A DNA stretch of 64,000 bases from Nitrospirota bacterium (lineage in GTDB: Bacteria; JACPQY01), in assembly GCA_016190245.1 (NCBI GenBank), contig JACPQY010000060.1, positions 62,001 through 126,000 on the forward strand, given 5' to 3'. The notes under the pieces are model-generated. The model ran no database searches. It was not told the origin of the DNA and worked only from the letters and a program-made list of their open reading frames with translations. Numbering within the stretch: the stretch's first letter is position 1; each line of letters begins with the position of its first letter. Positions 21,693 through 50,059 of this stretch are shown piece after piece. A program made the translations under genes and the position numbers.

Positions 21693-23234
21693 ATGCCCAA
21701 AGCCCTCCTCAGCGTTTCCGACAAGACGGGCCTCGTCGAATTCGCGCGGGGGCTGCACGCTCTGGGCTATGAGATTCTCTCCACCGGCGGGACGGCCCGG
21801 ATGCTCCGCCAGGCCGGTCTACCTATCACGGAGGTGGGCGCCTATACCGGGTTCCCGGAGATGATGGATGGCCGCGTCAAGACGCTCCATCCCAAGATCC
21901 ACGCCGGGATCCTCGCTCGGCGCGACAGGCCGGATGACATGGCCGCAATACAACACACCGGGATCGAACCGATCGATCTCGTGGCTGTGAACCTCTATCC
22001 CTTCGAGGAGAAGGTGCGCGACGGGACGTGCCCGCTGGAAGATGCCCTTGAGGAAGTGGACATCGGCGGTCCGACCCTCGTACGTGCCGCGGCCAAGAAC
22101 TACCGCCATGTCTGGGTAGTCGTCGATCCGGCGGACTACCCGGCTGTGTTGGAGCAGCTCCGCACGGGTCAGGATCCGGAGCCGAACCGGTGGCGCCTCG
22201 CCCGTAAGGCGTTCGATCGGGTGGCGGCCTACGATGCCGCGATCTCGAACGAGTTCGCTCGACGGGTGGCGGGCGACGCCCTCCCGGATGTGTGGACGGT
22301 TCAACTCCGGAAGCTCCAGGCATTGCGATACGGGGAGAACCCGCACCAGCGCGGCGCCGCATACGCCGAGGTAGGTGCCCTTGGGCACGGGCCGCTCGGG
22401 GGCCGACTTCTCCAGGGCAAGGCCCTCTCCTTCAACAACCTCCTCGATGCCGAAGCGGGCTACCAGCTCGCCCGGCAGTTTGCCGAACCCGTCTGCGTGG
22501 TCATCAAGCACAACAACCCTTCGGGTGTGGGTGTCGATTCGAACTCTCTCCTCAACGCCTACGTCCGGGCACGGGACGGGGACCCCGTGTCGGCCTTCGG
22601 TGGTGTGGTCGCCTTCAACCGGCGGGTGGACCGGGCCACAGCCGCCGAAATGGTGAAGATTTTCACCGAAGTGGTGACGGCGCCGGCCTTCGAGACAGAG
22701 GCGCTTGTGGTCCTGCGTGCCAAGAAGGACTTGCGCTTAATCGAGACGGGCGAAGGGGAGCCCGCGCGCTTCCTCGACCTGAAACGGCTCGAAGGGGGGG
22801 TGCTCCTGCAGGATGCGGACTTGGTCCGGGACGACCCTTGGACGTGGAAGGTCGTGTCGAAACGGACGCCTTCTGAGAGCGAGATGCAGGCCCTTGGATT
22901 CGGGTGGAGGGTCTGCCGGATGGTCAAGTCCAACGCGATCGTATTCGCCTCGCGGGAGCGCACGCTGGGGATTGGCGCCGGCCAGATGTCGCGCGTGGAT
23001 TCCGTGCGGCTCGCCACATCTAAGATGCGCGAACACGGCCTGCGCGGAGAAGTTCTGGTCATGGCCTCGGACGCCTTCTTCCCGTTCCGCGATGGCTTGG
23101 ACGAGGCCTGGAAAGCCGGCGTGACGGCCGTGGCTCAGCCCGGCGGGTCGGTCCGCGACGCGGAGGTCATTGCGGCCGCGGACGAGCACGGCATGGCGAT
23201 GGTCTTCACCGGTGTGCGCCACTTCCGCCATTGA
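21693..23234 (+). CDS. purH: Bifunctional AICAR transformylase/IMP cyclohydrolase
   Basis: Last two steps of de novo IMP synthesis. 513 residues, normal length. N-terminal MGS-like cyclohydrolase domain: [52 protein letters not shown]-terminal transformylase domain: [26 protein letters not shown] with the catalytic Lys-His, [14 protein letters not shown], and FTGVRHFRH at the end. Start is the ATG at 21693, with AGGGGG before it; the track ORF begins 7 codons earlier. The stop overlaps the sirtuin start by 4 nt (TTGA). Confidence 0.97.
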
Positions 23235-49261: not shown

Positions 49262-49373
49262 GGGTGACGATTCCGGTTCCGATGGCCGCCGATGATAGCG
49301 CGATCGCGCGGGCTCGTCCACAAGAGGGGGGCCGGAGGAGAGATTCCCTAACTTGCCTGGGCCGGTGCCCGCC

Positions 49374-49486
49374 GAGATTGCTTCTCCGCCGGCTGGCGGA
49401 TCGCAATGACGCCCTCTTCGGGTCATCGCGAGTCCGCCGTAGGCGGAAAGGGGCAGCCTGTCCGCCCGCTGGCGGATGGCGATCTC
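49374..49486. repeat. Dispersed palindromic repeat family R1, copy d, with three TCCGCC/GGCGGA hairpins
   Basis: 113 bp from GAGATTGCTTC to GCGATCTC, laid out as copy b at 21506. Hairpins at 49385, 49433 and 49461. The gap 49262-49637 also holds the tRNA-Pro fragment at 49566; otherwise no gene. Confidence 0.8.
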
Positions 49487-49565
49487 ACGTTGGAGAATCT
49501 CTGAGGCCGGAAGGCGGATTTGAAAAAGTCGGGCGGTGGGTATAGCGTCTTCAGCTTACTCCCCA

Positions 49566-49610
49566 CGGGGCGTAGCCCCGCCGGAGGCGGGGCACCTGAA
49601 TGGTGCTTGG
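49566..49610 (+). pseudogene. Fragment of a remodelled tRNA-Pro (copy A)
   Basis: CGGGGCG-TA matches the 5' acceptor strand of the real tRNA-Pro exactly. The D-arm is replaced by the hairpin GCCCCGCC-GGA-GGCGGGGC (49575-49593), then ACCTGAATGG begins the anticodon arm and homology is lost. It lies 27 bp upstream of the intact tRNA. Confidence 0.75.
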
Positions 49611-49637
49611 AAGTGAGACAATCGGAACGCGGAAGTT

Positions 49638-49711
49638 CGGGGCGTAGCGCAGCCTGGTAGCGCACCTGAATGGGGTTCAGGTGGTCCGCGGTTCAAATCC
49701 GCGCGCCCCGA
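49638..49711 (+). tRNA. tRNA-Pro (GGG anticodon)
   Basis: 74 nt. Acceptor CGGGGCG/CGCCCCG, D-arm GCGC-AGCCTGGTA-GCGC, anticodon arm CCTGA-ATGGGGT-TCAGG with GGG at 34-36 and G37, variable TGGTC, T-arm CGCGG-TTCAAAT-CCGCG, discriminator A. All stems pair perfectly. The CCA end is not encoded (next bases CGAG). It reads codon CCC. The track ORFs across it are artefacts. Confidence 0.96.
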
Positions 49712-49731
49712 CGAGAGAAGGGCGAAGGGCA

Positions 49732-49980
49732 TTGCCGTATTTCGTGTACGTGCTGAGAAGCCTGAAGGACGGCCGGTTCTACATCGGCTCGACGAGAGAC
49801 GTACAGGCCCGACTGGCCTTTCGCAATGCCGGGTTGCAGCGGTCCACCTGGCATCGCACCCCCTTCGAACTCGCCTACATGGAGGAGCATCCTGTCCGAA
49901 CCGAGGCCCTTCGACGGGAAAGGCAGTTGAAGAGGATGAAAGGGGGAGAGGGTCTGCGCAGGATTCTTGAAAGGGTGTGA
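49732..49980 (+). CDS. GIY-YIG endonuclease-domain protein (UPF0213 type)
   Basis: 82 residues, a complete minimal GIY-YIG module: FVYVLRSLKDGRFYIGSTRD (the VYV and YIG strands), conserved Arg in QARLAFRN, and the Glu helix TEALRRERQLKRMKG. Such small nucleases are common but their cellular role is mostly unknown. The TTG start has GAAGGG before it; the track start at 49681 lies inside the tRNA and is not real. The gene starts 20 bp after the tRNA-Pro and stops 3 bp before a remodelled tRNA-Pro copy, so it sits exactly between two tRNA-related sequences, like cargo. Confidence 0.85.
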   Translation: MPYFVYVLRSLKDGRFYIGSTRDVQARLAFRNAGLQRSTWHRTPFELAYMEEHPVRTEALRRERQLKRMKGGEGLRRILERV

Positions 49981-49983
49981 GGC

Positions 49984-50059
49984 GGAGGCGTAGCCCCGCC
50001 GCCGGCGGGGCACCTGAATGGGGTTCAGGTGGTCTCCCGCCGGAGGCGGGACGCCCCGA
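49984..50059 (+). pseudogene. tRNA-Pro-shaped element with D- and T-arms replaced by GC hairpins (copy B)
   Basis: 76 nt. Acceptor strands GGAGGCG and CGCCCCG plus discriminator A are kept; a 25-nt stretch spanning the anticodon arm and variable loop (50010-50034) is identical to 49662-49686. The D-arm is replaced by GCCCCGCC-GCC-GGCGGGGC (19 nt) and the T-arm by TCCCGCC-GGA-GGCGGGA (17 nt). Without TTC in the T-loop it cannot be a normal tRNA. Confidence 0.8.

Follow-up and report, generated by a model that had tools for sequence, protein, structure and literature searches.

Why should an intact tRNA gene and a minimal nuclease gene lie together between two altered pieces of the same tRNA? 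The question is raised by a locus in the window (the whole stretch of 64,000 nucleotides that was analysed, from the Nitrospirota contig JACPQY010000060.1). Its features are given below; R denotes the remodelled tRNA, R5 and R3 its 5' and 3' copies.

49566-49603, + strand: R5, the 5' part of a remodelled tRNA-Pro (positions 1-36), in which a GC hairpin replaces the D arm
49569-49603, + strand: left copy of the 35-nt overlap between R5 and R3, duplication-like, 33/35 identical
49577-49591, + strand: palindrome CCCGCCGGAGGCGGG, in the D arm of R5
49638-49712, + strand: intact tRNA-Pro, anticodon GGG (ARAGORN; Rfam RF00005, 61.6 bits)
49732-49980, + strand: minimal GIY-YIG nuclease gene, 82 aa, TTG start (PF01541, E 6e-13; invariant residues; AlphaFold2 model)
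49984-50059, + strand: R3, a remodelled tRNA-Pro copy (tRNA positions 4-75), in which GC hairpins replace the D and T arms
49987-50021, + strand: right copy of the 35-nt overlap between R5 and R3
50036-50050, + strand: identical palindrome CCCGCCGGAGGCGGG, in the T arm of R3

The intact tRNA-Pro(GGG), the GIY-YIG gene and the hairpin copies had been reported by a sequence-only reading of this DNA, and all are present at these positions (ARAGORN, Rfam, PF01541 and the sequence itself). The tRNA-Pro is followed after 20 nt by the nuclease reading frame, and the stop of the latter after 3 nt by R3 (starting at 49984). R3 retains the tRNA-Pro anticodon arm and discriminator and shares an exact 25-mer with the intact gene (49662-49686 = 50010-50034). 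Its D arm is GCCCCGCCGCCGGCGGGGC and its T arm TCCCGCCGGAGGCGGGA; R5 carries the same D-arm hairpin with a different loop (GGA vs GCC). The T-loop motif GTTCAAATC of the intact tRNA-Pro is missing from R. R3 had also been said to keep the acceptor, which is true in part: alone it forms 5/7 acceptor pairs, and 7/7 once R5 provides the 5' strand. Joined in silico at their overlap, R5 and R3 give a 77-nt sequence with a 7/7 acceptor stem, the tRNA-Pro anticodon arm and CCCGCCGGAGGCGGG in both the D and T arms. Judged by its sequence, the locus consists of one remodelled tRNA-Pro whose anticodon loop is interrupted by a cassette holding the intact tRNA-Pro and the nuclease gene. This geometry is simpler than the tRNA-like ends of the sequence-only reading; its nuclease-linked tRNA-duplication unit stands, while tRNA-like folding of the copies is unneeded and their role as recognition sites is not supported. 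RNA fold prediction for R3 places a rod at -57.7 kcal/mol and a cloverleaf at -44.6 kcal/mol; the rod arises because its two hairpins pair mutually. With the rod favoured by 13 kcal/mol, a tRNA-shaped RNA was rejected for R3, and the earlier term 'tRNA-shaped' is therefore true of the sequence layout only.

Palindromes are abundant beyond the locus: CCGCCNNNGGCGG is present 9 times in the window, where 0.63 would be expected, and 125 times genome-wide against 37 for a control. A scatter of the copies themselves over the genome was considered and rejected; the DNA search returned only tRNA genes and short hairpin matches. Separately, a block at 49370-49505 resembles a dispersed repeat (GAGATTGC...TCGCAATGAC) and contains palindromes, TCCGCCGGCTGGCGGA and TCCGCCCGCTGGCGGA, that resemble those of the tRNA copies. 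At the Rfam gathering threshold the window holds no element besides tRNA; a 97-nt tRNA-Arg(CCT) called by ARAGORN at 21949-22045 is unsupported at that threshold and is probably a false call.

The nuclease belongs to the GIY-YIG superfamily, as judged by PF01541 and the catalytic Tyr, Tyr, Arg and Glu; Y6, Y17, R27 and E63 are invariant among 18 aligned proteins, and also among 34. The AlphaFold2 model (pLDDT 89) comprises the GIY-YIG fold only, and a Seg-type DNA-binding domain joined to the catalytic domain is absent from it, the 82 aa leaving no room for one. The nearest solved sequences and folds are 1zg2, 1ywl and Slx1, and the model resembles the catalytic domains of UPF0213, Slx1 and I-TevI. 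Slx1, a structure-specific nuclease of eukaryotes, has a partner protein. For Slx1 and the UPF0213/YhbQ-like GIY-YIG proteins we know of no tRNA linkage. The known defence models of PADLOC gave no match for the protein, no NCBI-named family was matched by it, tblastn against plasmids returned no match at E 1e-8, and phage records held only relatives below 60% identity.

Is the arrangement particular to this locus? In the window's genome five GIY-YIG genes were found, three of which follow a same-strand tRNA (Pro, Leu, Arg) by 9-19 nt, and each of the three has a hairpin copy of that tRNA on its other side. All 42 tRNA neighbourhoods were examined; among the 39 tRNAs without a GIY-YIG gene a copy reached threshold at four, some of them weak (3/3 vs 4/39, Fisher p 0.003). 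Hairpin-bearing copies without nuclease occur at 7/40 tRNAs of G131, a second genome. Pooling both genomes gives copies at 5/5 tRNAs with a nuclease gene against 11/79 without (p 1.4e-4). The phylum of the window is represented in our sample by two genomes only.

The linkage extends across bacterial groups. A search profile of 8 proteins was run on 386 genomes, BLAST matches were added, and the matches listed were taken with their surroundings. Among these listed matches a same-strand tRNA lies within 150 nt of 40/59 subfamily members against 3/71 lower-scoring relatives. From the top to the bottom score class the fractions with a tRNA within 150 nt are 10/11, 17/23, 13/25, 5/22, 1/37, 2/28 and 0/6; the profile was seeded with tRNA-linked members (7/8 seeds within 150 nt), and the top three classes without the seeds give 33/51. 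Many tRNA isotypes are found at the linked loci. On the far side of the nuclease gene, 33/61 linked loci have a partial copy of the same tRNA in the same orientation, and 0/61 have one in reverse. The polarity of the copies is fixed, with few exceptions: a copy downstream of the intact tRNA reaches the tRNA 3' end, and a copy upstream of it begins at the tRNA 5' end. Of the 34 loci in which part of the same tRNA is repeated beyond the nuclease gene, 23 hold perfect hairpins. Perfect hairpins of at least 6 bp number 31 in the 34 copies; dinucleotide shuffles give 5.4 and outward control segments 11. The 31 include two hairpins native to the tRNA (L033, L061) and, at L028, a native T arm and a coding-sequence hairpin. 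As a separate observation, the nuclease stop lies 1-6 nt before the intact tRNA at L187, L189, L191 and L195, and at some other loci the end of the reading frame resembles translated tRNA sequence, so that gene and tRNA may overlap there.

Nuclease lineage tracks tRNA isotype. The nuclease tree, which comes from a short alignment and has many unresolved forks, needs 30 isotype changes against 45.5 when isotypes are shuffled (0/200 as low). The signal persists with one row per family and isotype (30 vs 37.4, 0/500) and with one row per family (mean p 0.02, largest 0.09). The Pro-linked protein of the window falls into one group (SH-aLRT 82) with proteins that two other families have at tRNA-Pro. 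The proposal of a nuclease-linked unit with a duplicated tRNA is thus borne out by linkage within one genome, by its recurrence in unrelated genomes and by isotype tracking. The contrary finding, copies only as scattered repeats unlinked to GIY-YIG genes, was looked for and did not emerge; solo copies without the gene do occur.

Breakpoints cluster in the T-loop, at GTTC^RA. Eleven of 34 R5 copies, which start at the tRNA 5' end, terminate at -1 to +3 of C56 (7 family groups; binomial p 6e-5), and 7/22 R3 copies begin in the C56 region (p 0.0015); the null for both takes positions as uniform and loci as independent, which favours the result. In G131, eight tRNAs with the GIY gene distant or missing have 3' copies that run from the T-loop purine to CCA, mostly exactly 20 nt. 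The window breakpoint is in the anticodon loop, not in the T-loop.

The remodelling of R offers a further line of evidence. The same change is present at the same tRNA position on both flanks of the cassette at Asn L063 (TCCGCCTTAGGCGGA on each side), at Pro L105 and L089, in the window, and at Ala L035, L036 and L050. Repeated R copies with identical hairpins surround the Asp L051 and Tyr L064 cassettes. R is, to judge from such flanks, older than its split by the cassette. In every remodelled tRNA-Ala copy retrieved from four genomes (L033, L035, L036, L050) a GTCGNAYCGAC-type hairpin replaces the anticodon arm, a count conditional on a search pattern that demands a TCG..CGACAGG core (one L035 copy is off by a base); the GIY proteins of these loci are 64-79% identical. 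At an orthologous tRNA-Gln locus, adjoined by a gene that looks to us, from its translation, like prs, genome G393 has a single tRNA with neither R nor nuclease, in G392 the tRNA is accompanied by a solo R piece, and the full set of R, GIY gene and tRNA is present in G131, G391 and G398. This pattern could reflect gain or loss; recombination between repeated tRNA parts would also restore a single tRNA. Elsewhere, a ~139-nt direct repeat at L036 (2520-2800) holds two pieces of remodelled tRNA-Ala, which precede the intact tRNA as a small R array.

We consider it probable, with room for doubt, that the locus is a chromosomal homing-like element that parasitizes tRNA genes and leaves one tRNA intact. 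The single-domain GIY-YIG nuclease would cut genes of a single tRNA isotype, frequently within the T-loop GTTC^RA, and recombinational repair from an element-bearing donor would place the nuclease gene beside one intact tRNA. The displaced second copy (R) would end up around the nuclease gene, broken and with perfect GC hairpins in its loops or arms. These hairpins would likely make the spare copy uncuttable or non-recombining, or serve as a structured substrate for an Slx1-like nuclease. Retention of the cassette would be helped because it carries the intact tRNA, which inexact loss would remove. The support is sequence-based: tRNA linkage across bacterial groups, copy polarity, identical remodelling on both sides of the cassette and isotype tracking all suggest such an element, as do the conserved catalytic residues, the clustering of breakpoints in the T-loop and an orthologous site found both with and without it. 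What we infer beyond the sequences is that tRNA genes are cut, that repair of the break makes the element mobile, and what its hairpins do.

Several points count against homing. The intact tRNA beside the nuclease gene keeps its T-loop motif and should be cuttable. The window breakpoint falls outside the T-loop, hairpin copies occur without nuclease (7/40 in G131, 4/39 in the window's genome) and no plasmid match was found. As modelled, the protein has no separate DNA-binding domain that would account for sequence-specific cutting. The intact T-loop in many R3 copies, like the motif kept by the tRNA beside the gene, would argue against a simple immunity role; for the R3 copies it also speaks against a general protection by hairpins, and the idea that hairpins always destroy the T-loop cut site was rejected on that count.

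A rather unlikely but possible alternative is tandem duplication followed by decay, in which unequal recombination duplicates the tRNA, the GIY-YIG gene happens for historical reasons to lie between the duplicates, and the copy no longer needed collects dispersed GC palindromes. Tandem truncated tRNA-GIY units at L105 and L053, the genome-wide palindrome excess (125 vs 37) and the solo decayed copies fit this account, as does the SegB-driven tandem amplification of a tRNA-segB unit described in PMC13096335. Isotype tracking, the same R remodelling between genomes, the fixed polarity and breakpoints at one position exceed what neutral decay would be expected to give.

The palindromes could instead form a REP- or MITE-like family of their own, inserted at tRNA loops by another enzyme, with the GIY-YIG gene an independent resident of these sites; we hold this to be unlikely. 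Units of the form GGGTTC[TCCGCC..GGCGGA][..]RAATC..CCA lie ~35 nt after many tRNAs that have no GIY gene, and the junction 12-mer GGGTTCTCCGCC has 41 matches in ten genomes against 2 for its reversed control. Among 30 GGGTTCTCCGCC loci examined, 21 are near a same-strand tRNA, 9 of them with a GIY gene; of the nine others, several resemble ordinary coding sequence. A separate family is, however, at odds with the greater frequency of copies at tRNAs with a nuclease gene (5/5 vs 11/79), and no other transposase was noticed in an unsystematic inspection. As an observation in its own right, ~100-nt MITE-like units GAGAACCC..GGGTTC[TCCGCC..GGCGGA][TGCGCC..GGCGCA]RAATC..CCA are seen at about position 1500 of L309, L316, L318, L319, L325 and L326, ~35 nt past Ala and Ser tRNAs with no GIY gene nearby; they are possible non-autonomous relatives.

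That R is a functional structured RNA (a processing signal, decoy or nuclease cofactor) selected for its hairpins seems improbable. In its favour are the high stability of R (z -5.3 in the window copy and -5.8 in the Leu one), the conserved remodelling of R-Ala, and a structure common to the tRNA-Gln R5 leaders of different species, in which a few pairs have changed on both sides. Against it, the altered arms vary by isotype, half of the tRNA is missing in many R copies and the RNAalifold covariation term is slightly unfavourable (+1.28) in the sole alignment folded. That alignment holds five tRNA-Gln R leaders, whose plan is shared between species in a family of ten genomes; 5 pairs changed on both sides, and because of the covariation term RNA-level selection on R is not established. 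A group I intron homing system was rejected: Rfam finds none in the window at the gathering threshold, and an intact, uninterrupted tRNA adjoins the gene.

The homing-like element that we favour has its closest known counterpart in SegB of phages T4 and T6, a free-standing GIY-YIG homing endonuclease in a tRNA cluster (PMC13096335, PMC2988022). According to PMC13096335, T6 SegB prefers the motif RAWTSGAAC and cuts inside tRNA genes, and a unit of tRNA-Tyr and segB undergoes tandem amplification. Read on the other strand, RAWTSGAAC is GTTCSAWTY, which we would identify with the T-loop; this identification is made here, the term being missing from the main text of PMC13096335. In both systems a GIY-YIG gene lies beside tRNA genes and is associated with tandem duplication of a tRNA-nuclease unit, and the SegB motif matches the frequent breakpoint seen here. 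Unlike SegB, the present elements reside in bacterial chromosomes, encode ~80-100 aa (the catalytic domain only) and involve many isotypes. They also have split, hairpin-remodelled tRNA copies, of which the available text of PMC13096335 and PMC2988022 yielded no description for SegB.

Integrative elements whose att sites are tRNA genes likewise keep one intact tRNA and leave a partial copy at the other side, and the 20-nt 3'-terminal copies of G131 resemble attR. The unit described here differs in lacking an integrase (none was seen between the two window copies, where the GIY-YIG reading frame is the only recognized domain), in its hairpin-remodelled copies and in the occurrence of both 5' and 3' copies. 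With REP/RAYT systems and other small dispersed palindromes it shares short GC-rich palindromes across the genome near a nuclease-type gene; it differs in having a GIY-YIG nuclease where RAYT is a Y1 transposase, and in palindromes that lie inside tRNA copies.

Free-standing GIY-YIG homing genes beside phage tRNA genes are already known; a chromosomal class with split, remodelled tRNA copies would extend that kind, with a clear chance that it goes beyond it. A literature search for bacterial tRNA-linked GIY-YIG elements or such a class, with most subscription journals and all preprints outside its scope, returned no description. The same layout at many tRNA genes of unrelated bacteria points to a little-noticed kind of selfish element living in tRNA genes. 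More tentatively, and with doubt prevailing, we propose a broad class of minimal chromosomal GIY-YIG elements that would home into tRNA genes by isotype, regenerate one working tRNA and maintain a conserved hairpin-remodelled copy as an integral part of their life cycle (as a site immune to cutting, or as the nuclease's structured substrate or RNA partner); the hairpin-plus-tRNA-end units would be their non-autonomous relatives. If true, the free-standing homing endonucleases would gain a widespread chromosomal class, a selfish nuclease would be seen to persist in essential RNA genes because it brings a working copy along, and there would be an explanation for the tRNA pseudogenes with hairpins and the small nuclease reading frames that lie beside bacterial tRNA genes. 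Through the link to the SegB motif, the choice of target (the near-universal T-loop) can be put to a direct test.

Genes from a different GIY-YIG subfamily are found between inverted repeats CCCCGCACCT.../...AGGTGCGGGG with no tRNA (L030 1479-1778, L031 1478-1779, L047 1435-1733), in the window's genome and in one genome of the same family. They look like a transposon-like element, the second with a GIY-YIG gene. Two of these inverted repeats, ~100 nt apart and with no gene, lie near a tRNA-Lys (L204, 1245 and 1346).
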